Notes: generated by a model from the sequence alone, not told the origin. Counted from the stretch's first letter, positions 6,241 through 38,573 are shown. The stretch: DNA of 64,000 nt from Natrinema sp. CBA1119 (GCF_002572525.1 NZ_PDBS01000001.1:310001-374000), one strand, 5' to 3'. Numbers and translations are program-made.

Positions 6241-9200
6241 CGATCCGATCCGCCTCCAGAACGCGCAACGAGACATTCGGGACGCGTACTTCGACCACGA
6301 TTCGGGATTGTATACTCTCAACTGCGTCCCAGGTGCAGGGAAATCCGAGGTCACTGACCATATCTCCGCAGAGGACATTCTCCGTCGCTACGTTGCTGGA
6401 GACCCGACACCCGAACAGCGAGTTGCAGCCATCTCGTTCAACCGTAGTGAGGCGGAGAGCATCATTCCAGATATCTGTGACCGCCTTCGGGAGATTGTCG
6501 AACACAATCTGGTCCCCGCTGCAAGCAAAGTCTCAGATACAGAGGTTGAATATCTGATCCAACGGATCAGACAAGCACCATTCGTCGGTACTATCGACAG
6601 TATCCTTCGGGACGTGCTGAGTGAGATCGCCTCCGACATCGGCTTTGAGGAGATGCCGGTCGTTGGCAAAACGGCTCGGCAGAAACACCTGCATGCTGCC
6701 TGTTACCGGGGCATTCAGGAGGATCCAGACTTGGCACAGCGAGTAGAGCGGCTGGAGGACGCGTATCCCACTGGCGAGTATGACGACGACGTGAGCGAGA
6801 TGCTTGAGACTGCCGTCACCTACTGTCGAGATCGCCGTATCTCTACGGAGGGGTTCCGCTCCAATCTCGAACAGATTGTTGAAGACGTCTACGCAGAGGG
6901 TCGCCCAAGATCGTTCAGCGATGTCGTCGCCGCGGTGGAACACTGTGTCGGGGCAGACATTGACGAGAGTGCCTACGACGACATCGGCGACGACGAACGA
7001 GGCCGAATCTGTGACGCAGATTCGAGACTTCACGGCGACTGGCGTGCCCGTATTGACGATTTCTGTACAGTACTCGAAGAGTATCGAATTACGTATCGTC
7101 AGACTATCCGCGACCGTGGCGTTGTCTCCCACACAGATGTTGCGTACCTCGTGGACGCGTACTTCGACGACCGACTCGGTAATGTCGATGATGCTCACCG
7201 GGCCAGAATCAGACAGCGATACCAGACAAGAATACAGAGTCTGATTATCGATGAGGCCCAAGACGTGTCGTCGATACAGCACGCCGCACTTTCCCATCTG
7301 GTCACCTCCAGTGCGCGTGTGTTCGGCGCGGGCGATCTGCTCCAGAGCGTCTATCTGTGGCGGCACGCTGAACCAACGCTCTTCGAGACCGCGACGGTCG
7401 AAGGAGAGTATCTCGGAATCAACTGGGATGTCCACGAGCACCGGACTGCGAAGACGACGTACCGGTGCGTCCCCGATGTCGCCAGTGCGATCAACGAAAT
7501 CTCGGAAGCAACGCTCACGGATCCAGCACGTGGGAACCTCGGAGAACTGGACGTCCGGTACCCTGGGCTAGAAGCTGATCGTGGTTCGACCGACGAGTCG
7601 AATGTCCACATCGCGGCATTCGATCCGATAGCTTCAGACCCTGATTCGTACGCCTGGGTCAGTCCTGTCGAAGGTCGTGGGGAAGCAACCACACTGGCGA
7701 CGCTCCTCTCGAAGGGGCTTGCAGATGGGTCGTTCACTGACGAGAACGATGACCCTCTCGGGATCACCGTGTTGTTCCGATGGACGTCGAAGATGGATGT
7801 GTATGAAGAGGCGTTCGAGGAAATGGGGCTCAGTGTTCGGAACGCGAGTGAAGATCTCTTCGAGTGCTCAGTCGTCAATGTAGTCCTTGACGTCTGTGAA
7901 TGGCTAGTCGCACCTGCCGACCCCGAAAGAACCCGCGCGCTCGTCACCGAGTCGAATCTCGGTCTCGAACCACTCGCAGACAACTTTGAGGCCCACCATT
8001 GGGATATCGACGCGGTTCTCGATGACTGCGACCTCACGGACGCACACCAGCACGTACTCGATGGCCTCTCCGAACTCCACGACCGACGTGATAGCTTCCT
8101 CTCCCGCCCCGCTGGCACCTACGCCGAGGACATCATCGAGACACTTGCCCTTCGCGCAGATTCCTATGGGTGCTTCGACGTCGATCCTGCACAACGGGTC
8201 GCCAACCTCGATGCACTCGTAGAGACCTTGGAGGAGTGGGAAGCGGACGAACATTTCACTCCACGTGAACTCACCGAGCTGGTCGAACCGTTTCGAGTGA
8301 GCCCGTATATGGGACCGAACCAGCCGAGTACTGCCGACACGAGTCACGACGTCGAATTTCGGACGGTCCATGACGCTAAGGGCGACCAAGACGACGTCGT
8401 CGCCGTTGCGAATCCCGGATTCAGCCTCTGGAAGCACGGGCCTCAAGCACAACGGTTCCTCACTCAGGGGAGCATCGCCGGACTTGCCCCGCCGACGGAC
8501 ACCGAAATTCCCTCAGACATTGCTCTCCCACCGTTCGCCAACGGACTCTACGATCCCGAGGACACCCGGGACCGCGATGTTGGATTGCGGTGGGCTACGG
8601 GCCACTGGTGCGATGACGTCGCCAAGTCCGCGGACGCAACATCGCTGGTTGGCCCCGACCGTCTCAAACGGGTTGCGGCGAACGAACGAGCCGAAGCCTG
8701 GCGGCTCCTGTATGTCTCGCTCACGCGGGCGAGAGACCACCTCGTTGTCCCACTCCCACGGTCACTGCCCGATGAATCCCGGCCCCGAGACCGGTGGCTT
8801 GACACGATCCGAGACGGGCTCAACTTCACCGGTAAGCAAACTGGGTCGTACACGGTCGATACGGACACCGGGTCGTTCGACGTCGGCGTCAATGATGTCG
8901 CACTTCGCGCAACATGGACAAACAGGGTCACGTCTCGTGACGACGACGTCGCCGTCAATCCACCACGACGCACCGATCTCGATCCATGGGTTCCACGGTT
9001 CGCCCACCCGAGTACGCTGTATCCACTCACGGACGATCCCGACGAACAGGTACTTGACCACCTCCTCGGCAATGCCCTGCACACAGATGCTAACGACGTT
9101 CCCGACGACGTCCCCCTGCAGTTCGACCGGTTAGGCCCAGACGACGTCGGCTCTTGCTTACACGAGGTGTTGACCACGCTTGTCGAACGCGAGGTTCCGG

Positions 9201-9709
9201 AACACACTCTTCGATCGCTGGGTGACGAAGTTCGGCGCGTGTTCGATGACGTCGTAGGCGACCACGCTCCGCGAACCGGAGACAATGAACGCGACAAACT
9301 GTTCTCCTTCTTCCGAGAGGAGGTACTGGACGACTTCCTCGCGTCCGACTTGTGGGAAGAAATCCAACGAGCCGAACGGGTTACCGTTGAGAGACCCATC
9401 GATGGTCTCGTCACTGTTGACGACGTCGAAATAGAGATACACGGCACGAGCGATTTTGTCGTTGAATCGCCCTCCGGCGAACAGTACGTGGCCGATCTGA
9501 AGATCACGCTGACGGATCAAACACCGGAGACGCGACGCCGGTACGAACTCCAAGTAACTGCTTACTCGTACCTCTTCGAGCAGCAGGAGAGTTCCGAAGA
9601 CCCAGTGGATCGGACAGTAGAGACATTCGGCGTCGAACGAGATACAATCGAGTCGTCGTGGCCGTCGGAAATTGTCGAACGGAGACTTGCAACGTTGGTT
9701 CGACAGTAG
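6233..9709 (+). CDS. AddA/UvrD-like helicase-nuclease
   Basis: A 1158-residue superfamily 1A helicase fused to a nuclease. Visible motifs are Q12 (Q motif), Walker A GAGKS at 34-38, Walker B DEAQD at 340-344, the GDLLQSVYLWR stretch just after it, motif V-like VHDAKGDQDD near 710, and motif VI LLYVSLTRAR at 825-834. The C-terminus has a RecB-type nuclease core: SDFVVE with D1074, DLK at 1088-1090, then a Gln and Tyr helix (QVTAYSYLF) near 1110. Such enzymes unwind and degrade DNA ends. Start is GTG 6233, overlapping the AddB-like gene. The lower GC and setting suggest an acquired complex. Repair, antiviral defence and plasmid processing are all possible. Confidence 0.85.
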   Translation: MSDDPIRLQNAQRDIRDAYFDHDSGLYTLNCVPGAGKSEVTDHISAEDILRRYVAGDPTPEQRVAAISFNRSEAESIIPDICDRLREIVEHNLVPAASKVSDTEVEYLIQRIRQAPFVGTIDSILRDVLSEIASDIGFEEMPVVGKTARQKHLHAACYRGIQEDPDLAQRVERLEDAYPTGEYDDDVSEMLETAVTYCRDRRISTEGFRSNLEQIVEDVYAEGRPRSFSDVVAAVEHCVGADIDESAYDDIGDDERGRICDADSRLHGDWRARIDDFCTVLEEYRITYRQTIRDRGVVSHTDVAYLVDAYFDDRLGNVDDAHRARIRQRYQTRIQSLIIDEAQDVSSIQHAALSHLVTSSARVFGAGDLLQSVYLWRHAEPTLFETATVEGEYLGINWDVHEHRTAKTTYRCVPDVASAINEISEATLTDPARGNLGELDVRYPGLEADRGSTDESNVHIAAFDPIASDPDSYAWVSPVEGRGEATTLATLLSKGLADGSFTDENDDPLGITVLFRWTSKMDVYEEAFEEMGLSVRNASEDLFECSVVNVVLDVCEWLVAPADPERTRALVTESNLGLEPLADNFEAHHWDIDAVLDDCDLTDAHQHVLDGLSELHDRRDSFLSRPAGTYAEDIIETLALRADSYGCFDVDPAQRVANLDALVETLEEWEADEHFTPRELTELVEPFRVSPYMGPNQPSTADTSHDVEFRTVHDAKGDQDDVVAVANPGFSLWKHGPQAQRFLTQGSIAGLAPPTDTEIPSDIALPPFANGLYDPEDTRDRDVGLRWATGHWCDDVAKSADATSLVGPDRLKRVAANERAEAWRLLYVSLTRARDHLVVPLPRSLPDESRPRDRWLDTIRDGLNFTGKQTGSYTVDTDTGSFDVGVNDVALRATWTNRVTSRDDDVAVNPPRRTDLDPWVPRFAHPSTLYPLTDDPDEQVLDHLLGNALHTDANDVPDDVPLQFDRLGPDDVGSCLHEVLTTLVEREVPEHTLRSLGDEVRRVFDDVVGDHAPRTGDNERDKLFSFFREEVLDDFLASDLWEEIQRAERVTVERPIDGLVTVDDVEIEIHGTSDFVVESPSGEQYVADLKITLTDQTPETRRRYELQVTAYSYLFEQQESSEDPVDRTVETFGVERDTIESSWPSEIVERRLATLVRQ

Positions 9710-9970
9710 TGCCAATCGGTGGTATGTGTTGCCTTGTCGAATACTATTTCATTACTGGCAGTCAGCGGCTCTGCTGCTCTGTCGTGATTCTAAAAAATTC
9801 ATTGTAAACGTAGGTGAGGGCAGATGTCCACCAGCGAGTTTACGAGCGGAAAATGAATTCAACAAAATAGGATTGCTGGCGACCTCAAGCGTTAATAGGC
9901 TGGTATAGCATTCCGTCGATGGTGTTGGTCACTCCTCAGACCCTAACCTATTATTAAGACTGCAGGATAA
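9710..9970. other. Intergenic stretch after the helicase operon
   Basis: AT-rich gap downstream of the helicase gene. It contains TTCTAAAAAATTC and short T runs that could end transcription. No gene is supported. Confidence 0.4.
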
Positions 9971-10213
9971 CTAGTGCGATGCCTCGGGTGGTCTCTGGGT
10001 TGTCGTTATAGGTTTTCTCTTGGGTGTGGGTGAGTACTGGCGGTGTGTGAGCGGCTGGTCGTTGACAAGTTCGTTGGTGTCGATCGTGACTGTGTCGCCG
10101 ACGTCGTCTGCACCCCAAGTGCCGCGGGGAGGACACTGTCCCGTGACCGCGGGTTGCGTAACACTTCGAAGCCCAGCGGCGTCTGAGTGTCCTGCCCCCC
10201 AGTGGTCAACGTC
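9971..10213 (-). pseudogene. Possible decayed gene (80-codon frame without a start)
   Basis: A minus-strand frame lies between a stop at 10214-10216 and TAG at 9971-9973. It contains acidic, protein-like sequence such as GADDVGDTVTIDTNELVNDQ but no ATG, GTG or TTG start. Its upstream end abuts the repeat-rich region before the recombinase-like gene. It may be a fragment of an exported or surface protein. Chance coding cannot be excluded. Confidence 0.25.
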
Positions 10214-10324
10214 TCAACTTCCTGGGAGGTAAATCCTCCATCCACTCCATATCAATACACGTCTTCGGACGATATTGGCCGGTATAGACCCGCGCCAAAC
10301 GCCTCTCAAAGACACAGATTGCTT

Positions 10325-10357
10325 GGCGCTGCTTCTAAGACGCTTAGAACCCGCGCC
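10325..10357. repeat. Inverted repeat with TTCTAAG arms
   Basis: A perfect dyad, TTCTAAG-ACG-CTTAGAA, lies at 10333-10349. It is flanked by a second matched pair, GGCGC (10325-10329) and GCGCC (10353-10357). The string ACCCGCGCCA beside it also occurs near 10288. This may be an operator or a small hairpin belonging to the repeat region before the recombinase-like gene. Confidence 0.5.
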
Positions 10358-10401
10358 ATGATTCCAACACCCAACAGTTTGAGACATCCTCCAGGAACAG
10401 T

Positions 10402-10511
10402 TTCCGCGCATGGTTTCCGCATACATCTGTTTCATTTCCGCGTAGGGTTTCCGCCACGAGCTCACTATTCCGCGTATGGTTTTCGCACCGACGCGGAAAC
10501 CCCCTGCGGAA
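10402..10511. repeat. Array of four TTCCGC-type repeats
   Basis: Three direct copies of a 19-base unit occur at 10402-10420, 10436-10454 and 10468-10486, with starts 34 and 32 bases apart. A fourth, inverted copy is at 10493-10511. The unit reads TTCCGCGYAKGGTTTYCGC, two TTCCGC hexamers 13 bases apart. The inverted copy touches a TATA-like ACTTATG just before the gene at 10546. The spacing, close to three helical turns, fits binding sites for a multimeric protein. The downstream recombinase-like protein is the natural candidate. An iteron-like origin is the alternative. Confidence 0.75.
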
Positions 10512-10545
10512 ACTTATGGGCGTGGCGAAACTACATTGACATGTG

Positions 10546-11379
10546 ATGACAGGGACAGAATTAGACGATGAGAATCAGATGCAACTGACTGATATCGATG
10601 GGGGACAGGTCACTGATGACGATGACTCGGGTACTGTGGTCTGTGTGATTGTCCACGCCCCCACTCGAACGGAATTGGCGGATGCGGCACGGTCGTGCTT
10701 AGCGCATGCCTCCCAGATTGTCGGTACGGATTGGGCTGATTCTGCTGGGCGAGCTGAGCTTGGTCGGCGTGTTTCAACGGGGGTGCTCTCTCTCGATGGT
10801 GGGGTGAGGGTGTCACGCGGGCATGTCTTGGCGCTGGGTGTTGACTCTGACAGGGCGCACGTCTCGGCAGGTGTTGAACAGGTTGAGCAGAGCCCGATGA
10901 CTGACGTGGTCGTTGACAGCTTAGCGACGCTCGGGAAGAACCATGCAGAGATCCAAGACAGGGTCGATACATTGGTCAACGCTGGCGTGACACTCCATCT
11001 GAACGATACTGCAGCGGAGATCAACAGTGACTCTGCAGACGCGTTACTGGGCGGTTTGCGGTCGCTCGATAAAGCGGGGGTCGAACTTCAGCGGGAGGCT
11101 AAGGTGCAGGACGTTCGTGACTGGGCGGACGGGATTGACCGTGACCGCGGGCGTGCTCCGCTCGGCTTCGCCTATGATGACTCGGGGACAGTCGTTCCTG
11201 GTGAGGACTACGATGAGGTTCGCGGTGTGTTGTCGATGGTGTTGGACGACAGTCCTGATGGGCTGTCGAAGCGGAGGGCTGCGGAGCGTCTCGGTGTCGC
11301 TGATCGGACGATCGGGCGGGCACTGGATAATCTGGACCGGTACGGGCTCGAAGAAGAGGGAGAGGACATTGAGGAGTGA
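10546..11379 (+). CDS. Degenerate serine-recombinase-like DNA-binding protein
   Basis: A 277-residue protein laid out like a serine recombinase. Residues 30-165 keep the resolvase outline, for example VVVDSLATLGKNHAEIQDRV followed by LVNAGVTLHL. Residues 200-265 match the recombinase domain: GRAPLGFAYDDSG, then a helix-turn-helix (SKRRAAERLGVADRTIGRAL). The N-terminal motif that normally carries the nucleophilic serine (Y-x-R-V-S) reads VIVHAPTRTE, so the serine and its arginine partner seem lost. I infer a catalytically dead DNA-binding protein, perhaps an autoregulator at the repeats just upstream. A GTG at 10543 is an alternative start. A TATA-like ACTTATG near 10513 implies an almost leaderless mRNA. 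Confidence 0.65.
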   Translation: MTGTELDDENQMQLTDIDGGQVTDDDDSGTVVCVIVHAPTRTELADAARSCLAHASQIVGTDWADSAGRAELGRRVSTGVLSLDGGVRVSRGHVLALGVDSDRAHVSAGVEQVEQSPMTDVVVDSLATLGKNHAEIQDRVDTLVNAGVTLHLNDTAAEINSDSADALLGGLRSLDKAGVELQREAKVQDVRDWADGIDRDRGRAPLGFAYDDSGTVVPGEDYDEVRGVLSMVLDDSPDGLSKRRAAERLGVADRTIGRALDNLDRYGLEEEGEDIEE

Positions 11380-23297: not shown

Positions 23298-24177
23298 CCG
23301 TCCCCGTATTCGTGTCCGTCTCCGCGTCCGATTCGCTCTCTTTCGAGAGGTACCTGTACAGCGCTCCACCGCCTCCCAGCGCGCCGAGACCCGCACCGCC
23401 GACGAGGGGCAGTAGTCCGCTGTTGCCGTCATCACCCCGTCCGTCACCCGGTGAGTCCGTCGTGCTATCCGTATCGCCCGATTCGAGGACGACGACGGTC
23501 ACCGATTCCGTGCTGGCCACCGAACCGTCCGCGGCGAGCTCGATCGAAAGGGTGTACTCGCCAGCCGTCCGTCCGGTTATCGAAACTTCGACCGGACGGT
23601 CGCTACCGGCCTGTATTCGTCCGATCGTCTGTGGTCCGTGCTCGACCGTGAGCCCGTCTCCCGAACTGCCGGTTACCGTTACGGATGCGGTGGATTCGTC
23701 ACCGACGTTCGCCGCCACCACGTCCAGCGTCGCCGTCTCGCCGACGGACAGTCGGCGCGGCCCCTCGACGTCGATAATCACTGGCTGGGGCGGCAGCGTC
23801 ACCGACTCGACGGTCGATTCGGCAGCGGTTCGCCGCTCGACCGTCGTCGATTCGGCATCCTCGAGTTCGTCGATGCGTGACCTGAGTGTCGACTCCTCGA
23901 AGTTCGCCGGCGCGGAGAGATAGACGGCCGCTTGCAACAGGAACTGCGACCGCCGCAGGTCGAGCGTCGCTGCCGACTCCGCGAAGGCCGTCAGCGTCTC
24001 CTCGTCGTCCGCGCGACCGCTGGCTGCCAGCGACTGGACGTAGACGCGCGAGTTCTCTCGCTCGGTCCCGGCGAACGCCTCGGCGATCTCGTTCAGCGTC
24101 TCGGCTGCCGACTCGTACTCCTCGGTATCGATCCGCGATTCGAATCGCTCGAGAAGCGCGGGTATCTCGTCGCTCAT
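23290..24177 (-). CDS. Membrane-anchored protein with CARDB-like domain
   Basis: A 295-residue protein, middle gene of the operon. Residues 1-110 are helical and TPR-like (IDTEEYESAAETLNEIAEAF). Residues 140-240 look like a CARDB/Ig-like adhesion domain (RLSVGETATLDVVAANVGDE). A single hydrophobic helix (LLPLVGGAGLGALGGGGALY) is near residue 265, with a short acidic tail. No signal peptide is visible, which is odd for a CARDB domain that normally lies outside the cell. The start is ATG 24177, sharing ATGA with the upstream stop. Its stop overlaps the VWA gene start. Confidence 0.65.
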   Translation of the reverse strand: MSDEIPALLERFESRIDTEEYESAAETLNEIAEAFAGTERENSRVYVQSLAASGRADDEETLTAFAESAATLDLRRSQFLLQAAVYLSAPANFEESTLRSRIDELEDAESTTVERRTAAESTVESVTLPPQPVIIDVEGPRRLSVGETATLDVVAANVGDESTASVTVTGSSGDGLTVEHGPQTIGRIQAGSDRPVEVSITGRTAGEYTLSIELAADGSVASTESVTVVVLESGDTDSTTDSPGDGRGDDGNSGLLPLVGGAGLGALGGGGALYRYLSKESESDAETDTNTGTDD

Positions 24178-26708
24178 CGTTTGGTTTGTGGTGCTCCCTC
24201 GACGATTCCGTCGACCGTCTCGTAGTGAACGTTCGCGACATCCTGCATCGTTTTCACGCCGTAGCCGGCACCGAGCAGGTCGTATACCGCCGAGACGATG
24301 TCCCCGACGAGCGAACCGATCGCCCACAGGATCTCGAGAATCGTCTCGACCGCATCGCCCTCCATGAGCGCCGCGTACGCGTCGGCGAGGTTTTCGAAGA
24401 GACCGAACTCGTCGAGCGTGTCCTGGATCGCCTGAAGACCCGCGTGGGCGGTCCGAAGCTCGTCGGTGACAGTCATTACGCCGTCGTTGAGCGCGGTCCG
24501 CGCACCTGTGAGTGAGCCGCGGAGTCCCTCTCGACCGAGCCTGTCCGGATCGAGCCGCGTGTATGCGAGTGCGAGTCCGTCGTCCAGTCTGTTGTCGTAG
24601 TCGTCGTCGATTTTGTCGCCGTCCGTCTCGATGGTGTATTCGATCGGCCGCCGCAACGTGTCGGCAACCGTCGATTGAAACGCCGAGATTTGCTCGTCGA
24701 TGTACTCACCGAGTGCAAGCTTCGCGATCTCGCCGCTGGTCTCTTCGACGAGTTTGTCGACAGCTCCCTTCGCGATCTCGTCGGACGACTCCTTCAGTGC
24801 GGTACTCGCTTCGCCGCTCAGATCCGCGGCGTAGTCCGCGAGTTTCGCGATCGCGTCGTCGAGCTTTCCCACCAGATCGTCGACGTATCCCGAGAGGTAG
24901 GGAAGCTTGTCAGCGATATACGTGCCGAGTTTTCCGCCGGCGATACCCACGCCAATCATCGCGAGGTCGACGAGTAAGGAGAGCACGAGTTCGGCCGTAT
25001 GTCCAGCGAGATCGTACTCCTCAACCGACTGTTCGTACGACTCCGAGCCGAGTCCGCTGAGCACATCCACCGTGAACGTCTCGGCCAGTACCAACCGCTG
25101 GGTCGCTCCTTCCGCAGTCTCGAGCGGAAGCCGATCGGTTCTCACCCGATCGTTGAGTCGCGACACCGCCGACGCGACCGTCGCTTCGTGGTCGATATCG
25201 GTCACTGTCACGTCGTCGATCTCGCGAGCGTGCTCCCGCAGGGCGCTCGTTCGCGCGACCCGTACGTCGAGAGTCTTCGTCGTCTCCGTCGTCCCACCGT
25301 CGTCCGTCCGGAGACGGAGCGTCACGGGTACCTCCCCGACTTGCTCGTAGGCGTGTGTCGCCGACTCGCCGACTTCCTCGAACTCGCCGTCGCCGTCGGT
25401 ATCCCACTCGTAGGTCGCGATGGTCCCGTTCGCCGCACTCGAGCCCGTCCCCTCGTACTTCGTTTCCAGGCTCGTCTCGGGCGGCGTCGGCGTGACCGAG
25501 AAATCCGCGGTCGGTTCCCCGGTATTCGATTCACCCGCCAGTTTCACCAGCCGCGCGCTCCCGGTTCCACCCTGCTCGAGCGCTCCGACCACGAGCGGAT
25601 CGTCACCGCCAACGACGGCGTTCGCGTAGTCGACGGCGTTCGTTTCGTACGTGGTCTGCCAGACGACCTTGCCGTCGGCGAGGAGCTTCACGACCCACGT
25701 CGACTGCTGGCCGCGACCGGTCGAGGCGGTCGAACCAACGGCGAGATACCCCTCTCCGTGCCGGACCAGCGACGTGAATCGGTCGTCGTCGCGTCCGCCG
25801 ACCCGCTTTCGCCACGTCTCCGTGCCGCTGGAATCGATCTCGACGATCAGGCCGTCCGTCCCGCCGCTCCCCGCGGATTTCGTCCCGCCCGCGAACACGT
25901 AGCCGTCGTCGTGAGCCGGCACGACGGCGCGGGCGTAATCGTCCGCGCTCCCGCCGTAGACCTGATTCCACTGCGCGGTTCCGTCGCCGTCGGTTGCGAG
26001 CACCCACGCGTCGCGGCCACCGCTTCCAGCGGAGTCGGTTTCGCCGACGAGCAGATACCCCCCGTCGTCCGTCCGGACGTGGTCGAACGCCCAGTCGTCC
26101 CCGGTCCCGCCGTAGACCTCGTTCCAGTCGCCGTCTCCGCTCTCGTCGACCCGCATGAGCCAGGCGTCGACGCCGCCGCTCCCCGCCGATTTCGTCCCGC
26201 CCGCGAACACGTAGCCGCCGGGTTCGGAGAGCACTGACGAGGCGCGGTCGTCCCCCGTGCCGCCGTAGGGCCGCTGCCACTGTTCGGTGCCGTCGGCCGC
26301 GAGCTTCACCAGCCAGGCGTCGAGTTGGCCGTTCCCTCGAGAGGCGGTCTGGCCAGCCAAGAGGGAGCCGCTGTCGGCTGGCGTCGCCGCCGAAATCCAG
26401 TCGTGTGCGCCGCCGCCGAACGTCTTCTGCCACGTTTCGCGCCCGCTCCCGTCGGTTTTGAGCACCCACGCGTCACGACCGCCGCTGCCACTCGTCGTCT
26501 GGCCGGCGAACAGGTAGCCGTCACCCGAGCCGTCCACTGCCGTTATCGCGATATCGTCGCCGCCTCGATCGAACGTTTGGGACCACTCGATACCAGGAGT
26601 CTGCCACTGCATCCCCGAGGTACCTCGAGCGAGTCCCGCCGAGTACGGTAACGCACTCCCGACTATCGTTCCCCCACCTGTCGTTTTGATGAACTTCCGC
26701 CGATTCAT
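24174..26708 (-). CDS. Exported beta-propeller/PKD protein with helical C-terminal domain
   Basis: An 844-residue protein, first gene of the operon. It starts MNRRKFIKTTGGGTIVGSAL, a Tat-like signal. Residues 35-390 contain about seven repeats of roughly 50 residues with signatures such as GGTGDDWAFDHV and DAWVLKTDGSG, which should fold as a beta-propeller. A PKD-like domain follows (ATYEWDTDGDGEFEEVGESA). The last 350 residues are helical, with a hydrophobic stretch near 580 (LVLSLLVDLAMIGVGIAGG) and many amphipathic helices, unlike any family I know. Together with the two downstream genes it may form a cell-surface or secreted complex. Function unknown. Confidence 0.7.
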   Translation of the reverse strand: MNRRKFIKTTGGGTIVGSALPYSAGLARGTSGMQWQTPGIEWSQTFDRGGDDIAITAVDGSGDGYLFAGQTTSGSGGRDAWVLKTDGSGRETWQKTFGGGAHDWISAATPADSGSLLAGQTASRGNGQLDAWLVKLAADGTEQWQRPYGGTGDDRASSVLSEPGGYVFAGGTKSAGSGGVDAWLMRVDESGDGDWNEVYGGTGDDWAFDHVRTDDGGYLLVGETDSAGSGGRDAWVLATDGDGTAQWNQVYGGSADDYARAVVPAHDDGYVFAGGTKSAGSGGTDGLIVEIDSSGTETWRKRVGGRDDDRFTSLVRHGEGYLAVGSTASTGRGQQSTWVVKLLADGKVVWQTTYETNAVDYANAVVGGDDPLVVGALEQGGTGSARLVKLAGESNTGEPTADFSVTPTPPETSLETKYEGTGSSAANGTIATYEWDTDGDGEFEEVGESATHAYEQVGEVPVTLRLRTDDGGTTETTKTLDVRVARTSALREHAREIDDVTVTDIDHEATVASAVSRLNDRVRTDRLPLETAEGATQRLVLAETFTVDVLSGLGSESYEQSVEEYDLAGHTAELVLSLLVDLAMIGVGIAGGKLGTYIADKLPYLSGYVDDLVGKLDDAIAKLADYAADLSGEASTALKESSDEIAKGAVDKLVEETSGEIAKLALGEYIDEQISAFQSTVADTLRRPIEYTIETDGDKIDDDYDNRLDDGLALAYTRLDPDRLGREGLRGSLTGARTALNDGVMTVTDELRTAHAGLQAIQDTLDEFGLFENLADAYAALMEGDAVETILEILWAIGSLVGDIVSAVYDLLGAGYGVKTMQDVANVHYETVDGIVEGAPQTKR

Positions 26709-30240: not shown

Positions 30241-32034
30241 ATGAATTGGAACCCCACCCTCCCCGACGACGGTCTCAGCAGGCGGTCGTTTCTGGCGGCC
30301 GGCGCAACGGGGGCTGCAATCACGACGAGCGGCTGTATGAACAGCGTGCGAAGCGTGGTCGGTCAGGCCGGCGACGATCAGCTATCGCTCTCTATTGCAA
30401 CGGTCCCGGCGGAAGGCGACAAGCAGAGCATCCAGATCGCTCGCCGTCTCGAGAGCAACCTCAAGAAGGCCGGCATGGCGGTCACACTGGACGTCCGCTC
30501 GCAATCGGAGATGCTCAAAGCGGTCCTGATCGATCACGACTTCGATATCTACGTCGGCCTCCACCCAGCCGATTACGATCCGGACTTCCTCTACGAAACG
30601 CTCCACTCGACGTACGCGAGCGAAGCCGGCTGGCAGAACCCCTTCGGACTCACCAATATGGCGTTCGACACGCTACTGGAACGTCAGCGCCACTCCGAGG
30701 GCGACGAGCGGAAGCGAGACGTCCATTCGGTCCTGAAAGCGCTGGCACAGGCGAAACCGTTTGACCCCATCTGTATGCCCGACGAGTATCGCCTCGCCAG
30801 AGCGGGTCGGTTCGAGGGCTGGAACGAGGCCGATCTCACGACCCGCCACGGCTACCTCGGTCTCGAGCCGGCGGACGGCGTCGATCAGATCCACGCGCTC
30901 AGAACCGACGCTCGCGCGACGAGCAACCTCAATCCGCTTTCGGCGACAATGCGTGAGCGAAACACGACTATCGACCTGCTCTTCGATTCGCTGGGGACGG
31001 TCAACAACGGCGAGATAGAGCCGTGGCTGGCCACGTCCTGGGACTGGACGGAACCGGATGACAGCGAGCAGGCGTCGACGCTGACCGCGACGGTCACCCT
31101 CCGCGAAGACTGTCAGTTCCACGACGGCGAGCCACTGACCGCCGAGGATGTCGCCTTTACCTATCGGTTCCTCGAAGACACGTCGCTCGGACGAGCGCCC
31201 TCGTCGCCGGCACCGCGGTATCAGGGGCACGTCGACGGTATCAATGAGATCTCCGTCGACGATGACGCCGTCGATGGCGAGTACGAACTGTTGTTCTCGT
31301 TCGAGGGCGGGCGGGAGGCCGCAAAGCGGGCGTTTACCGTCCCGATCCTGCCAAAACACTACTGGCACGATCTGGTAGACGGACGGGCTGCCGACGGCGA
31401 TTTTACCGCACCGCAAGGCCGGTGGATCGCCGTCACGGGGGACCACATCCCGCCGGTCGGAAGCGGCCCGTTCCAGTTCGACAGTCGAACCCAAGACGAG
31501 CAACTTCGCCTCACTAGATACGAGGACCACTTTACGCTCCGTGAGGACGTCAATCTCCCCGGGCCGACCGTCGACGAACTCCGATTCGATATCGCCCCCA
31601 GCAGCTCGTCTGCGATCAGGCAGGTCGCCGACGGGAATGCGGACGTGACGGCCTCGATGCTCTCCGCATACACGTTGGACGCGATTCCCGACTCCCCGGA
31701 CGTCGAACAGTTGAAATCCACCTCGAGAACCTTCTACCATATCGGATTCAACGTCCGCAACGCACCCTTCAGCAACACGCACTTCCGACGCGCGGTTTCG
31801 CAACTGATCGACAAGGAAGCGATCGTCGAGGACGTGTTCTACGGACACGCGACCCCCGTCGCAACGCCGGTCACCGACGAATGGATTCCCGAGAGCCTCG
31901 AGTGGAACGGCGAAGCCCCCGTACTGCGGTTCCTCGGGTCGGACGGAGAACTCAACGTCGAAGCGGCGAAAGCGACGTTCGAGAGCGCCGGGTTCCGGTA
32001 CGATGATAACGGTCGGTTGCTTGGAGGCTACTAG
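30241..32034 (+). CDS. Solute-binding-like lipoprotein, apparently circularly permuted family 5
   Basis: A 597-residue Tat lipoprotein: SRRSFLAAG at 13-21, lipobox TSGC with Cys 32. Its segments resemble family 5 (peptide/dipeptide) solute-binding proteins in a permuted order. Residues 40-205 match what is normally the C-terminal stretch (FDIYVGLHPADYDPDFLY, then ERKRDVHSVLKALAQAKPFD). Residues 215-595 match the normal N-terminal and middle parts (EPWLATSWDW, then REDCQFHDGEPLTAEDVAFT), ending with ATFESAGFRYDDNG, where the ordinary protein would continue into the first block. No permease or ATPase gene is near. Five bases separate it from the PAP2 gene. Ligand unknown. Confidence 0.7.
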   Translation: MNWNPTLPDDGLSRRSFLAAGATGAAITTSGCMNSVRSVVGQAGDDQLSLSIATVPAEGDKQSIQIARRLESNLKKAGMAVTLDVRSQSEMLKAVLIDHDFDIYVGLHPADYDPDFLYETLHSTYASEAGWQNPFGLTNMAFDTLLERQRHSEGDERKRDVHSVLKALAQAKPFDPICMPDEYRLARAGRFEGWNEADLTTRHGYLGLEPADGVDQIHALRTDARATSNLNPLSATMRERNTTIDLLFDSLGTVNNGEIEPWLATSWDWTEPDDSEQASTLTATVTLREDCQFHDGEPLTAEDVAFTYRFLEDTSLGRAPSSPAPRYQGHVDGINEISVDDDAVDGEYELLFSFEGGREAAKRAFTVPILPKHYWHDLVDGRAADGDFTAPQGRWIAVTGDHIPPVGSGPFQFDSRTQDEQLRLTRYEDHFTLREDVNLPGPTVDELRFDIAPSSSSAIRQVADGNADVTASMLSAYTLDAIPDSPDVEQLKSTSRTFYHIGFNVRNAPFSNTHFRRAVSQLIDKEAIVEDVFYGHATPVATPVTDEWIPESLEWNGEAPVLRFLGSDGELNVEAAKATFESAGFRYDDNGRLLGGY

Positions 32035-32039
32035 GTGCG

Positions 32040-32912
32040 ATGCTTGCCGAGGTGCTGACTCAGGTCGCCGTTGTAATCGCGATTCTAGTGCCGGTGTCGA
32101 TCATCGTCTTCATCGGCCGTGAGCGCCTCGCTCGAACGCGCTCGGAGTGGCGAACTCGGCTCAAGACGACTGCCCCGGTGATCGCTGTGTTGATCGTCGT
32201 CTTACTGATCAACCGGGTCGCCCGACAGGTCGCACCGAAGCTATCGCGGCAGATCGGGATCCGCCTGACATCGGCGTTTTACAACATCGAAGGGGAGTTT
32301 ATCCTGGTCTTTCAGGCGATTCAGACCCCGGAGACGTCGGCGTACTTCTCATCGATCTACGTCTACGGCTACACGTTCCTGCTGATCTTCCCGGTGATCG
32401 CCTACTTTACCCTCTCCGATACCCGGGCCTTCCGCCGCCTGTTGGCGGCCTACGCGCTCAACTACGCGATCGGTCTCATCCTGTATATCTTCGTGATCGC
32501 GTACGGCCCCCGGAACCTGATGCCCGCCGAGCTCATGGAGCGGATGTTGTACGATACGAACCCGGAGTACCAGTATCTCACCCGCGAGGTCAACACCAGC
32601 ACGAACGTCTTCCCGTCGCTTCACACCTCGCTTTCGGCGACCGTGGCGGCGTTCGCGTGGCAAACGCGGTCCGAGTTTCCGAAGTGGCTCCCCGTCGCGG
32701 TCGTGCTGGCGGCGAGCGTCGCGATTTCGACGATGTATCTCGGAATTCACTGGGGAATCGACGTCACTGCGGGATTACTGCTCGCTGCCCTCTGTGTCGC
32801 CCTCTCGCATCGGCTCGTCGGCCGCTGGTCGCTCGAGGAACTAACTGAGAAATACGGCGACCGGCTCCCCTGGCTGCAGGAGCGACTCCCCTCGAGTCAG
32901 GAACAGGATTGA
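32040..32912 (+). CDS. PAP2-family membrane phosphatase
   Basis: A 290-residue protein with about six membrane helices. The catalytic PAP2 signature is present: a polar loop before TM4 (YGPRNLMP), then VFPSLHTSLSAT with the PSxH motif (His 195), and near residue 236 YLGIHWGIDVT, the third motif with the nucleophilic-type His. The family removes phosphate from lipid phosphates at the membrane. The order of motifs is like inositol-phosphoceramide-synthase-related PAP2 proteins (PSLHTS). Co-transcription with the upstream lipoprotein gene is likely. Substrate unknown. Confidence 0.8.
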   Translation: MLAEVLTQVAVVIAILVPVSIIVFIGRERLARTRSEWRTRLKTTAPVIAVLIVVLLINRVARQVAPKLSRQIGIRLTSAFYNIEGEFILVFQAIQTPETSAYFSSIYVYGYTFLLIFPVIAYFTLSDTRAFRRLLAAYALNYAIGLILYIFVIAYGPRNLMPAELMERMLYDTNPEYQYLTREVNTSTNVFPSLHTSLSATVAAFAWQTRSEFPKWLPVAVVLAASVAISTMYLGIHWGIDVTAGLLLAALCVALSHRLVGRWSLEELTEKYGDRLPWLQERLPSSQEQD

Positions 32913-33052
32913 ACGCGGCGGGCACGGTCCGACTGCGTCGATGGGGTTCCCACAGCCGATACGCTCGAGTCGAGTGCCGTCACCGACGACTCATATCCAC
33001 GGGGAACATAATACTGTTATAGCGCGGCGGGTAACGATGAGAGACGACCATA

Positions 33053-34831
33053 ATGAACGGACGACGTGGCGTCCCGAAACGCAGTAGTCGCGACACTGAC
33101 GGCACATCCATCAGCCGTCGAGCCGCACTCGCTGCGACCGCCGGTCTGACGGTCTCGACCAGCGGCTGTCTGCAACGCCTCCGGAATCTCGTAACTCGAG
33201 ACAACATCGACCAGCTCTCGCTAACGATCGTCACCCTCCCCGCCGAAAGCGATCGGGCATGCATCAGGATCGCGAACGAACTGGAACAGGCGTTCACAGC
33301 CGCCGGAATCGACGTCTCCTTGGACGTCCGATCGGGCATCGACTTCCACCGGACGGTGCTGTACAACCACGACTTTGACATCTGCATTAGTCGCCACCCC
33401 GGCGGAACCGATCCCGACTACCTCTATCAGGCGTTGTACTCGCGCTATGCCGACGAATCGGGCTGGCAGAACCCATTCGGCTACACCAACCTGGCCGTCG
33501 ACGACCTCCTCGAGAAGCAACGCCGCGCCGAGGGTGATGAACGACGCGACGCTGTCACGAGCGCGCTCGAGGCAATCGCGGTCGAACAGCCGTTCGTTCC
33601 GATCTGCGTTCCCGAGGAACATCGGTCCGTCAGAACGGATCGGTTCACCGGCTGGAGCGAAAACCACCTCGCGACCCGTCGCGGCTATCTCGGTCTCGAG
33701 CCGTCGGCGGGCGTCGAGACGCTTCGCGCCACCCACACGGATGCAAGACCGACGGAAAACCTCAATCCGCTCGCGGTCGACTATCGCGGTCGCGGAACGA
33801 TTACCGAGTTGCTCTACGACTCGCTGGCGACGGACGATCCCACTGGCGCCGTCCACCCGTGGCTCGCAAAATCGTGGGAGTGGGACGGGGCGACGATCGA
33901 TATCCGACTGCGAGATGGGTGTGAGTTTCACGACGGCACGTCGATAACCGCCAGCGACATCGAATTCACGTACGAGTTTCTCAAAGACATGTCCCTCGGT
34001 GACGGGGATATCGACTCTCCAGCACCCCGCTTTCGCGGCCAGGTCGAATCCGTCGAGACGGTCGACGCTCGGCGCCGCAATCGCGTCGAGATTACGGTCG
34101 GGACGAATCGAGCGGTCGGCGAACGCGCCCTTCTCGTTCCGATACTCCCCGAACACGTCTGGCGCGACCGGGCAGCCGATGCCAGGGGCCCAGGCGCTGT
34201 CAGCATCGCTCAGGGGACCACGAGGGCGGTCGTCACGAACAATATGGAGCCGGTCGGAAGCGGCCCGTTCCGACTCGTGGACCGAACCGAAGGCGAACAG
34301 CTCACGTTCGAGCGGTTCGATTCCCACTTCACGCTCGACCGCCGCGTCGATCTACCGTCACCGACCGTCGACGAGTTCTCGGTCGGAATCGCCCCGAGCA
34401 GTAAAACGGCGGTTCAGGCCGTCGAGAACGACGACGCCGACGTCACGCTGTCGGCACTCGAGACGAACCTCATCGACGGCGTCAGCAGATCCGACAGTGG
34501 CCGGTTGGTCGAGTCGCCGTCGTGGACGTTCTACTTCCTCGGCTTCAACGCGCGGAACGCACCGTTCAGCAATCCGCGGTTCCGGCGCGTCCTCGCACAG
34601 TTGGTCGACAAGGAGTGGATAGTGGAAGAGGTGTTCCACGGAAACGCTCGACCCGTGGCAACGCCGGTCATCGACGAGTGGGTTCCCGAAAGCCTCGAGT
34701 GGGACGGGAACGACCCCGAAACGCCGTTTCTGGGGACCGACGGGGAAGTGAACGCCAACGCGGTACAACTGGCGTTCGAAGACGCTGGCTTCCGATACGA
34801 CGAGCAGGACCGACTCCGCGTCAGACAGTAA
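33053..34831 (+). CDS. Second solute-binding-like lipoprotein, same permuted order
   Basis: A 592-residue paralogue of the protein encoded at 30241. It has a Tat-type signal (SISRRAALAATAGLTVSTS) with lipobox Cys 39. The same arrangement occurs: residues 50-215 hold the usual C-terminal block (FDICISRHPGGTDPDYLYQA, then QPFVPICVPEEH), and the N-terminal block follows (HPWLAKSWEWDGATIDIRLR), ending with AFEDAGFRYDEQDR. The two proteins share most motifs throughout, so the arrangement predates their duplication. The start at ATG 33053 gives the signal. A TATA-like ATACTGTTATAG is near 33008-33019. No transporter partner is close. Confidence 0.7.
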   Translation: MNGRRGVPKRSSRDTDGTSISRRAALAATAGLTVSTSGCLQRLRNLVTRDNIDQLSLTIVTLPAESDRACIRIANELEQAFTAAGIDVSLDVRSGIDFHRTVLYNHDFDICISRHPGGTDPDYLYQALYSRYADESGWQNPFGYTNLAVDDLLEKQRRAEGDERRDAVTSALEAIAVEQPFVPICVPEEHRSVRTDRFTGWSENHLATRRGYLGLEPSAGVETLRATHTDARPTENLNPLAVDYRGRGTITELLYDSLATDDPTGAVHPWLAKSWEWDGATIDIRLRDGCEFHDGTSITASDIEFTYEFLKDMSLGDGDIDSPAPRFRGQVESVETVDARRRNRVEITVGTNRAVGERALLVPILPEHVWRDRAADARGPGAVSIAQGTTRAVVTNNMEPVGSGPFRLVDRTEGEQLTFERFDSHFTLDRRVDLPSPTVDEFSVGIAPSSKTAVQAVENDDADVTLSALETNLIDGVSRSDSGRLVESPSWTFYFLGFNARNAPFSNPRFRRVLAQLVDKEWIVEEVFHGNARPVATPVIDEWVPESLEWDGNDPETPFLGTDGEVNANAVQLAFEDAGFRYDEQDRLRVRQ

Positions 34832-34921: not shown

Positions 34922-35326
34922 TTATCGATCCTCGAGCGCGTCGGCGATGCGCTTGAGTGCGCGCGTCTGATCGCGCAGTTCGTCGCGCATCTGTCGGACC
35001 TCACGCACGAGTTCTTCGTTGCTCTCGTCCTGTCCACCGGCACCGGGACCGCCGGGACCTGCGCCCGGACCGCCCGGGCCGGCACCGGGGCCGCCACCGC
35101 CGCCCATCATGCCGCCCATCATTTGGGCGAACGGATTGCCGCCGCCCATACCGCCGGGGCCGCCCGGACCGCCACCGCCGCCGAACGGGTTCTCGGGAGC
35201 CTCTCCCTCGCCGTCGCCCTCTTCGGCGCGCTTTTCGCGGATCTCCTCGACTCGCTCGCGGAATGATTTCTCCTCGCTATTCTCGCCTGCGTCTTCTCCG
35301 TCGGGAGATTCGTTTTCGTCCGTCAT
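34922..35326 (-). CDS. Gly/Pro-rich protein with C-terminal coiled coil
   Basis: A 134-residue protein. The N-terminal 45 residues are acidic and charged (MTDENESPDG, then SFRERVEEIREKRAEEG). A low-complexity middle follows of Gly, Pro and Met repeats (GGGGPGGPGGMGGG, MMGGMMGGGGGPGAGPG). A C-terminal coiled coil ends the protein (EELVREVRQMRDELRDQTRA). No signal peptide is seen. It is probably an oligomeric or phase-separating type of protein, but this is a guess. Start is ATG 35326, chosen over the in-frame 35380 because it begins the acidic N-terminus. Function unknown. Confidence 0.7.
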   Translation of the reverse strand: MTDENESPDGEDAGENSEEKSFRERVEEIREKRAEEGDGEGEAPENPFGGGGGPGGPGGMGGGNPFAQMMGGMMGGGGGPGAGPGGPGAGPGGPGAGGQDESNEELVREVRQMRDELRDQTRALKRIADALEDR

Positions 35327-35399
35327 ACCAACCGATTCTGGAGCGGCGGGGAAAAGGGTTGCCATGTCTCTGATGAGCACGCCGGCCCGACCGTGATCC

Positions 35400-36320: not shown

Positions 36321-36362
36321 CTAATATATAATATATTGTGTCGGTCCGGGGGAGAATCTCCC
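36321..36362 (+). promoter_or_regulatory. AT-rich promoter and palindrome before the PhoD-type gene
   Basis: CTAATATATAATATATTG at 36321-36338 is a strong TATA-like region. A perfect palindrome, GGGAGA-A-TCTCCC, follows at 36350-36362, seven bases before ATG 36369. It lies where transcription or translation would begin, so it could be a repressor site. The surrounding sequence is far richer in A+T than the coding regions. Confidence 0.5.
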
Positions 36363-36368
36363 GCAGTC

Positions 36369-38573
36369 ATGGCAGACACGCACTCCAACGAACGAGACGA
36401 TTCGGCGACGAACAATCGACGAGGATTTCTCCAGACGGTCGGACTGGCCGCGACGACGACCGGCCTCGTCGGAACCACAGCGGCGGACGCAGGGGCGGAC
36501 CAGGCGGCTGACCGGAGCGATGACGGCGGCGAAGGCCACCTCATCGAACTCACACACGGCGTCGCCGCGGGCGACGTTACCGCGACGACGGCGACGATCT
36601 GGGCGCGTGCGGAAGGCGACGCGACGATACACGTCGCGTACAGTCACGACCGAGCATTCGACAGCGTCGGCTACGATCGGACGACGATCGACGGCGAGAC
36701 CGACTACACCGGCCACGTCCGACTCGAGGGCCTCGAGTCCGGCACCGAGTATCGCTACCACGTCTGGGCCACGACGACGGAGACGTCGTATCGACCGCTG
36801 CGCGACCGAGACGACGGTGCGGGTGCTCGAGGGCGAGGGCGGGGCCGAAGCGGGGAGGACGGCTCGAAGCGATCCGGTCGAAACGGACGCGGACCCCGGG
36901 AGAAACCGGAAGACAACGGCCGAGGCGGCGAGGAGACGGCCGACGGCGCGATTCCCGATGCGGTCGAAAGCGGGACGTTCGTGACGGCACCGGCCCCCGA
37001 CGATGAGGCGAGCGTCAGCTTCGCCTGGAGCGGCGACACGTGGGGCTACGGAGACGACCCGATCGAGCCGCCGTTTCCCGGACTGCGGTCGATCGCCGAG
37101 CGAGAGCCGGACTTCTTCCTCTATCACGGCGACACGATCTACGCCGACGCGCAGACGCCGGCCGGGAAGATCACCGAGGACACCCCGATCGACGAGTCGC
37201 TCGAGATCTACCGGGACAAGTACAAGGAGATGCGCGATCCGCCAGCAGAGATCGCGGAGCGGACGAATCTGCGGGAGCTACTCGAGTCCACGTCGGTGTA
37301 CACCGTCTGGGACGATCACGAGGTCATCAACAACTTCGCGGGGCCGATCGAGCCGCTGATGCCCGACGGACGGCGGGCCTTCCGCGAGTACTGGCCGCTC
37401 GACCGTGACGACGACGCCGAACCCGGCGAGTCGAACCGGTTCTACGAGTCCTTCCGGTGGGGGAAACACGTCGAACTGTTCGTCATCGACACCCGCCAGT
37501 ACCGCGATCCGAACGTCGACCTCGACTCGAAGACCCTGCTGGGTCGCGAGCAACTCGAGTGGCTGAAGGGAGCCCTCGCCGATTCCGACGCGACGTGGAA
37601 GCTCCTCGCCTCGCCGGCTCCGCTGGGGTATCCGTCGGACTCGTGGGCGACGCCGGCCGATCGAACCGGCTACGAAGCGGAACTACTCGAGGTTATCGAG
37701 CACATTCAGACCGAGCCGGTATCGAACCTGGTCGTCGTCGCGGGCGACGTACACAAGTCGGTCGTGGGCGCGTTCGATCCGGATGACGACGGCGAGTTCG
37801 AGTTCGTCGAGGCTATTGCGGGGCCGCTGGGTGCGCCGGCCGGCAAACCGGACGACCTCTATCCGGCACTCAATCCGACGGAGTTCTTCGCCAAGGGAGA
37901 GTACGCCAACTTCGGTACCGTCGACGTCGACGAGTCGGGTGAAACCCTGACGATCGGGATCTACGACGAACACGGGACCGAGCAGTTCACAAAGACGATT
38001 CACACGGACGATATCGACGCCGGGGCCGATCCCGCGTCGGCGGACCGCATCGAGAGCACGTTCGACGGAGACGCCGATGGCTGGCTCATCTCCCAAAACG
38101 GCGGAAGCAATCACCCGGTCTACCGCGAGAGTGGCGGGAATCCCGGCGGTCACGTCAGCGACGAGGAAAATCAGGGCGGTGTCGCCTGGTACTATCAGGC
38201 TCCATTTAAGTTCCTCGGCGATCGCGAGGCGTTCTACGGCGGGACCCTCTCCTTCGACCTCCGACAGGGCCAGACCGACCGACAGTTCGACGCCGAACCG
38301 GTCGAAGGCGGGGACATCCTGCTCGCCAGCGGCGACGTGAAACTCGTCTACGAGTTCCGCGGGGCTGATAGCAATCCGGGGAAGGAGTGGACGACGTTCG
38401 ACGCACCGATTTCGGCCGATGCCACCTGGATCGATCTGACGAGTCAGGAGCCGATCGCGACCGAGGAGCGCTTCCGCGAGGTCCTCACGGCTCTCGAGAC
38501 CCTCCGGATCCGCGGCGAGTACCGATCGGGCGACGACACGAGCTATCTCGACAACGTCGTCCTCTCGAGATAG
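36369..38573 (+). CDS. phoD: PhoD-type alkaline phosphatase with laminin-B-like C-terminal domain
   Basis: A 734-residue exported enzyme. A Tat signal is present (NNRRGFLQTVGLAATTTG). A fibronectin-like N-terminal domain of PhoD (TATIWARAEGDATIHVAYSH) precedes a basic Arg/Gly-rich insert (GARGRGRGRSGEDGSKRSGR). The metallophosphoesterase core follows with SGDTWGYG, FFLYHGDTIYADAQ, VWDDHEVINNF and LVVVAGDVHKS. PhoD enzymes release phosphate from phosphodiesters and monoesters outside the cell. The last 190 residues (WLISQNGGSNHPVY, then GGTLSFDLRQGQTDRQFD, then the LRIRGEY end) resemble a laminin B/IV-A carbohydrate-binding-type domain, an unusual fusion. Start is ATG 36369; a frame open from 36336 is not needed. 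Confidence 0.85.
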   Translation: MADTHSNERDDSATNNRRGFLQTVGLAATTTGLVGTTAADAGADQAADRSDDGGEGHLIELTHGVAAGDVTATTATIWARAEGDATIHVAYSHDRAFDSVGYDRTTIDGETDYTGHVRLEGLESGTEYRYHVWATTTETSYRPLRDRDDGAGARGRGRGRSGEDGSKRSGRNGRGPREKPEDNGRGGEETADGAIPDAVESGTFVTAPAPDDEASVSFAWSGDTWGYGDDPIEPPFPGLRSIAEREPDFFLYHGDTIYADAQTPAGKITEDTPIDESLEIYRDKYKEMRDPPAEIAERTNLRELLESTSVYTVWDDHEVINNFAGPIEPLMPDGRRAFREYWPLDRDDDAEPGESNRFYESFRWGKHVELFVIDTRQYRDPNVDLDSKTLLGREQLEWLKGALADSDATWKLLASPAPLGYPSDSWATPADRTGYEAELLEVIEHIQTEPVSNLVVVAGDVHKSVVGAFDPDDDGEFEFVEAIAGPLGAPAGKPDDLYPALNPTEFFAKGEYANFGTVDVDESGETLTIGIYDEHGTEQFTKTIHTDDIDAGADPASADRIESTFDGDADGWLISQNGGSNHPVYRESGGNPGGHVSDEENQGGVAWYYQAPFKFLGDREAFYGGTLSFDLRQGQTDRQFDAEPVEGGDILLASGDVKLVYEFRGADSNPGKEWTTFDAPISADATWIDLTSQEPIATEERFREVLTALETLRIRGEYRSGDDTSYLDNVVLSR

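Follow-up and report, generated by a model that had tools for sequence, protein, structure and literature searches.

Circularly permuted family-5 solute-binding proteins in haloarchaea, with a lineage whose genes adjoin a PAP2 phosphatase gene

Introduction

Circular permutation of proteins in nature is mostly known from cases in which it happened once, long ago. Among the solute-binding proteins (SBPs) of family 5, or cluster C, the structures of OppA and DppA have both the N and the C terminus in lobe 1, and place in lobe 2 the loop that leads from the AxxLLxxAG helix into the next strand. Other organisms have orphan SBPs that work with a permease in trans, the family-5 receptors AliA/AliB and PrgZ being examples. 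A naturally permuted SBP has been described in Treponema pallidum, where the glucose-binding protein TpMglB-2 (Tp0684), of Type Ic or Cluster Bc, still binds its ligand and closes despite the permutation (PMC4990184). Here we describe two paralogous SBPs, P0001 and P0002 (49%–50% identical), encoded at positions 30241–34831 of a 64,000-nucleotide stretch of DNA from Natrinema sp. CBA1119, a stretch that we call the window throughout. A reading made from the sequence alone had proposed that in both proteins the usual C-terminal block of family 5 stands right after the signal and is followed by the usual N-terminal block.

The window genome (labeled G000) is of a Natrinema-type haloarchaeon, with Natrinema zhouii as the nearest named record (79%). 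P0001, which counts 602 amino acids from GTG 30226, has full-length relatives throughout the genus. The explanation that we prefer overall, and regard as very probable, is that the two proteins are permuted family-5 lipoproteins, that block order in the family has been changed recurrently, and that the window lineage is paired with a gene for a PAP2-family phosphatase.

Reversed block order in both window proteins

The Pfam profile SBP_bac_5 (PF00496) scores 173 and 155.8 bits against P0001 and P0002 (cut-off 32.4). It matches solely in their second halves (residues 263–596 and 267–552), where it covers profile positions 1–284 and 2–260 of 368; in two normal-order SBPs of the same genome the positions covered are 1–366 and 3–364. 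Block hidden Markov models (HMMs), trained solely on normally ordered proteins, place the usual C-terminal block first (P0001 residues 47–207 in a 603-residue frame, E = 5e-19; P0002 residues 57–208, E = 2.3e-23) and the usual N-terminal block second (residues 232–591, E = 1.1e-61; residues 235–560, E = 4.2e-59). No further open reading frame (ORF) in the window matched these models below E 0.2. Each protein thus holds both blocks, the full family-5 complement, but the usual N-then-C order is absent. A phmmer search of PDB chains gave the same picture, with query residues 371–550 aligning to 158–330 of 5u4o and query residues 63–172 to 370–478 of the same chain; the swapped order is seen against 1xoc and 6hlx too. 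The matches are to family 5 only, and not to Type I or cluster B.

Restoring the usual order makes the chains better family-5 proteins. Against a normal-order HMM, swapping the blocks improved the score of every permuted protein examined (96/96), the mean rising from 210 to 286 bits and the aligned part of the model growing from 312 to 458 of its 489 positions, while cuts at other points in the same 96 proteins did not raise the score but lowered it. The permuted chain ends in ...AAKATFESAGFRYDDNGRLLGGY and begins, after a spacer, at DQLSLSIATV, two stretches that adjoin in normal chains; P0001 stops about 12 residues past its N block, at ...FRYDDNGRLLGGY. At the level of sequence, P0001 and P0002 are confirmed as circularly permuted family-5 SBPs, their matches coming out in the swapped order that the sequence-only reading had described. 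That reading had also held the rearrangement to be ancestral to the pair, and rightly: both proteins have orthologues throughout Natrinema, and the order is shared by relatives in many haloarchaeal families, so the permutation predates the duplication.

Chance similarity and artefact were both considered and were ruled out by the profile E-values and the broad conservation of the arrangement. Independent genomes, dozens of them, and plasmid records all preserve this order, with frames intact and with high identity among the permuted proteins, which excludes chance and assembly error and leaves an artefact of assembly, annotation or reading frame with a practically negligible probability. A chimera, made by fusing the C-terminal-like block of an unrelated SBP ahead of a family-5 N-terminal part, is very improbable. 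For the closest permuted–normal pairs described below, the two blocks are equally similar to one and the same partner (73%/76% and 83%/88%), and each permuted chain contains the family's blocks once, as a full set; in the chimera's favor, the block-by-block comparison of donors does not include the window clade.

Repeated changes of block order

In trees of re-ordered blocks, the label permuted or normal changes five times, and the changes are forced by well-supported branches. A single clade for all permuted proteins was tried and rejected by approximately unbiased (AU) tests, with p = 7.7e-5 for a 21-row set from orthologous operons and p = 0.007 for a 30-row set.

Two groups of close relatives show what such a change looks like. 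Within one archaeal genus, the permuted L125/L126 and the normal L128/L129 are 83%–90% identical per block, with an exact swap between AGYSE and DNKLKLEL and a six-residue linker, SEEQKD, that joins the old termini; their neighboring loci differ. The permuted L196 and the normal L207 belong to syntenic haloarchaeal operons and are 73% identical in the N block and 76% in the C block, with identities of 86%, 90% and 86% for permease B, permease C and ATPase D. At the DNA level the upstream flank, the signal region and the permease are collinear between these two operons, and the interior blocks are exchanged. Both of these comparisons, like L087 and the window clade, have the cut in the loop that connects the AxxLLxxAG helix with the strand after it. 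In a subfamily that includes L006, L089, L140, L141 and G000:C1:647278-648879 the cut precedes the AEELIQEGFEAAG helix, one loop earlier. By sequence comparison, then, block order has evidently changed repeatedly in family 5.

A different account would have one ancient permutation, and would attribute the patchiness to horizontal transfer, block-wise gene conversion and an occasional return to normal order. Halobacteria exchange genes readily, both forms coexist in many genomes, and most permuted rows fall into two large groups that come close to forming one clade: the window clade and the other large permuted group are not quite separated (AU p = 0.052). With this last result an independent origin of the window's permutation is only a possibility, and to it must be added that the trees do not polarize the changes, some of which could be reversals or gene conversion. 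We nevertheless consider a single event unlikely, since one clade is rejected in both AU tests, and since L125/L128 and L196/L207 require recent changes of order in either direction, in the second case with the upstream flank and permease still collinear.

Recurrent re-ordering probably came about through duplication, a route suggested by one intermediate-like protein. A non-halophilic archaeon of the same phylum (G128) has a 1,026-amino-acid ORF (L127:6310-9387) arranged N-C-linker-N-C, that is, two complete family-5 SBPs. The tandem copies are 71% identical, and there is one signal peptide and no internal second one. An in-frame tandem duplication would first give an N-C-N-C fusion of this kind; loss of the first N and the last C blocks would then leave a permuted C-N chain, with the signal and a flexible spacer retained during the loss. 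This route agrees with L196, whose signal and Gly/Asn-rich spacer are unmoved. Overlap remnants of a tandem duplication were not visible in the permuted proteins, only 3 of 112 of which had a z above 3.

Distribution of the permuted order

The sequence-only reading had suggested a search for other members with the same order, and a junction-spanning profile found them in quantity. At least one permuted member is present in 206 of 293 sampled Halobacteriales genomes, representing 70 of 87 genera, and among the matches listed all span the junction. The Natrinema genome itself encodes six family-5 SBPs, four permuted and two normal; the two permuted proteins outside the window sit in complete SBP-B-C-D-F operons. 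Many permuted relatives outside the window lineage adjoin complete peptide-type (Opp/Dpp) ATP-binding cassette (ABC) transporter genes. In the rest of the phylum, permuted members were found in only one other archaeal family (f21). Plasmids of the Alphaproteobacteria Nitratireductor, Ketogulonicigenium, Roseomonas and Maritalea carry permuted members in ABC operons, three of which also hold hydantoinase/oxoprolinase or peptidase genes. Among 398 Pseudomonadota genomes, with the best six candidates per genome scored, no match fully spanned the junction at E 1e-25, and viral contigs scanned for additional sequences yielded none. The alphaproteobacterial permuted sequences that were inspected have a signal peptide without a lipobox; anchoring is therefore not the general reason for permutation. 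These results go beyond the sequence-only reading in showing that the permutation is widespread and recurrent and that many relatives keep their ABC permease genes.

Two gene arrangements were seen in passing. In L194, two family-5 SBPs, one normal and one permuted, lie back to back at 6695–8698 (−) and 9094–11109 (+), each at the head of its own transporter operon. In L145, L146, L147 and L150 (Alphaproteobacteria and Halalkalicoccus), the permuted operons adjoin genes for hydantoinase/oxoprolinase, creatininase, and M20 and M28 hydrolases, a hint that the substrate may be an amide or a cyclic peptide.

A PAP2 phosphatase gene beside the window lineage

The gene between those of P0001 and P0002 belongs to the PAP2 family, with matches to PAP2_3 (PF14378; 60.3 bits, E = 2.9e-16, cut-off 27) and PAP2 (PF01569; 45.5 bits, E = 7.7e-12, cut-off 27.2) and with the motifs PSLH and GIHWGID. 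No NCBIfam equivalog scored above its cut-off for the product (38 vs 261 and 33 vs 229). Such a gene stands directly downstream, on the same strand, of 47 of the 59 SBP genes in the window clade, often touching or overlapping the SBP gene, and of 0 of 155 other family-5 genes. Natronorubrum has the arrangement SBP-PAP2-SBP-PAP2, and plasmid pHG2 of Haloferax gibbonsii has one SBP-PAP2 pair. ABC permease and ATPase genes are absent beside the window pair and beside nearly all members of its clade; the only transporter set near a clade member is at L043, where B-C-D-F genes lie on the opposite strand some 4 kb from the SBP gene. This pairing, too, had formed no part of the sequence-only reading.

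The binding protein of the window lineage has parted from its ABC context and is now encoded with a PAP2 membrane phosphatase. It would capture an extracellular ligand and either deliver it to the PAP2 enzyme or regulate the enzyme with it. Gene order points to such an SBP-PAP2 partnership, and our best reading is that the SBP serves or regulates the membrane phosphatase, or else uses a permease in trans. The stricter form of that last option, in which the window proteins are orphan SBPs feeding an Opp/Dpp permease encoded elsewhere and the PAP2 product has a separate function on the same transcript, is a possibility to be taken seriously, if a somewhat doubtful one. The genome encodes several complete Opp/Dpp transporters, AliA/AliB and PrgZ provide precedents, and copies without an adjoining PAP2 gene exist: there are 12 among the 59 window-clade genes, including the second copy in the window and its counterpart in the Natrinema orthologues examined, and they speak against the pairing as a general rule. 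An orphan role would sit poorly with a PAP2 gene kept directly downstream in 47 of 59 cases across many families and in none of the other family-5 genes, with the duplication of SBP and PAP2 as a unit in Natronorubrum, and with the retention of the pair on a Haloferax plasmid.

Predicted fold and anchoring

The sequence-only reading had expected the permutation to leave the fold intact, with new termini that might alter docking to partners. Sequence supports the intact fold, since the re-ordered chains can be aligned over their whole length with normal relatives and keep all their blocks. Structure prediction gave models of low confidence: two AlphaFold models from a 20-sequence input have mean predicted local distance difference test (pLDDT) values of 52 and 56, with lobe 1 badly modeled, so that the support for an intact fold comes from sequence. 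The best structural matches of the better model (P0002) are family-5 chains (NikA, DppE, OppA and YejA; Z 12–13.9), with partial chain coverage and from a low-confidence model. In the widest alignment, model residues 198–554 correspond to NikA 21–337 of ~496, and the first ~190 residues are unmatched by the sequential aligner, as expected for a permuted chain under sequential alignment. Foldseek template-modeling scores were low because pLDDT is low, and the aligned ranges alone were used. The alignment of the P0002 model, which covers the range expected, supports the permuted reading without proving the fold.

Most likely, P0001 and P0002 fold into the usual two-lobed trap, with the new chain ends in a lobe-2 loop and a short linker joining the old termini. 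Given that both normal termini are in lobe 1, permutation should move the lipid anchor, and by analogy with OppA and DppA we infer an anchor on lobe 2 instead of lobe 1. Export by the twin-arginine translocation (Tat) pathway and lipid anchoring are predicted for P0001 and P0002 from the Tat-lipobox motif, whose twin Arg, Gly and Cys are invariant in an alignment of 27 permuted members. Very probably the permuted proteins function as binding proteins, because many of their genes adjoin intact Opp/Dpp-type transporters and because they replace normal-order orthologues in syntenic operons whose permeases are nearly identical. More tentatively, the permuted lipoprotein and the PAP2 enzyme could form a transporter-free, two-part haloarchaeal surface system in which the lobe-2 anchor presents the ligand to a lipid-processing enzyme; permutation at one loop would then be a frequent and nearly neutral switch in the family, traceable from one closely related species to another.

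Features of the locus

Table 1. Coordinates of the permuted SBP genes, their blocks and the intervening PAP2 gene in the window
Feature	Position	Strand	Basis or remark
Permuted SBP 1 (P0001), Tat lipoprotein	30241-32034	+	ATG 30241, GTG alternative 30226
P0001 Tat signal peptide and lipobox SRRSFLAAGATGAAITTSGC	30241-30333	+	Cys37 codon at 30334
P0001 usual C-terminal block, placed first	30361-30843	+	Normal-order C-block HMM
P0001 linker, old C-terminus to old N-terminus	30844-30915	+	Gap between the two HMM matches
P0001 usual N-terminal block, placed second	30916-31995	+	Normal-order N-block HMM; PF00496 1-284/368
PAP2-family integral-membrane phosphatase gene	32040-32912	+	Pfam; starts 5 nt after SBP 1
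Permuted SBP 2 (P0002), paralogue of SBP 1	33053-34831	+	592 aa
P0002 Tat signal peptide and lipobox ISRRAALAATAGLTVSTSGC	33053-33166	+	Cys39 codon at 33167
P0002 usual C-terminal block, placed first	33209-33664	+	Normal-order C-block HMM
P0002 linker, old C-terminus to old N-terminus	33665-33742	+	Gap between the two HMM matches
P0002 usual N-terminal block, placed second	33743-34816	+	Normal-order N-block HMM; family N HMM reaches residue 592

Elsewhere in the window, three genes deserve mention in their own right. Directly after the permuted pair, 34922–35380 (−) encodes a short protein that has a low-complexity stretch rich in Gly and Pro, GPGGPGAGPGGPGAG, and matches no Pfam family. At 36336–38573 a PhoD-like phosphatase carries, unusually, a Laminin B (domain IV) match at its C-terminal end. 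In the secreted protein encoded at 24174–26708 (−) the unit GYLFAGQT..GSGGRDAWVLK is repeated, a PKD domain comes after the repeats, and a beta-propeller may be present.

Comparison with known systems

With family 5 (PF00496; OppA, DppA, NikA, AppA) the window proteins share both blocks, the signature segments, size and lipoprotein export, and many other permuted relatives resemble the family further in adjoining Opp/Dpp permease and ATPase genes. The window clade differs in block order, in having its termini in the loop that precedes the first strand of the usual C-terminal block, and in having PAP2 rather than permease neighbors. Because profile libraries match only part of such proteins, annotation pipelines label them plain ABC substrate-binding proteins and the rearrangement is missed. 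AliA/AliB and PrgZ are, like the window pair, family-5 lipoproteins without adjoining permease genes, but their order is normal, and we know of no conserved PAP2 partner for them. The PAP2 neighbor shares motifs and membrane architecture with its superfamily (PF14378, PF01569; PgpB and undecaprenyl-diphosphate phosphatases), yet scores far below the NCBIfam cut-offs for the named enzymes. The conserved SBP-PAP2 gene pair suggests a use of binding proteins outside transport.

In open-access full text, which covers few subscription journals and so gives weak evidence, TpMglB-2 was the sole natural permuted SBP found, and neither family-5 proteins in permuted order nor an SBP-PAP2 pair was found described. 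TpMglB-2 and the window proteins are alike in being permuted, bilobed ABC-type binding proteins with an N-terminal lipid anchor, which in the window proteins is predicted from the motif. TpMglB-2 differs in belonging to Type I (cluster B), in that the first three strands of the N lobe have moved to the end, and in an extra hinge crossing (PMC4990184). The published description is of one family; in family 5 the event has occurred repeatedly, and one occurrence can be seen inside a single genus. The change of order can be seen here at 83%–90% identity and inside syntenic operons, together with an intermediate-like tandem fusion, so existing pairs of orthologues now allow direct tests of how duplication leads to permutation and of what the change costs in function.

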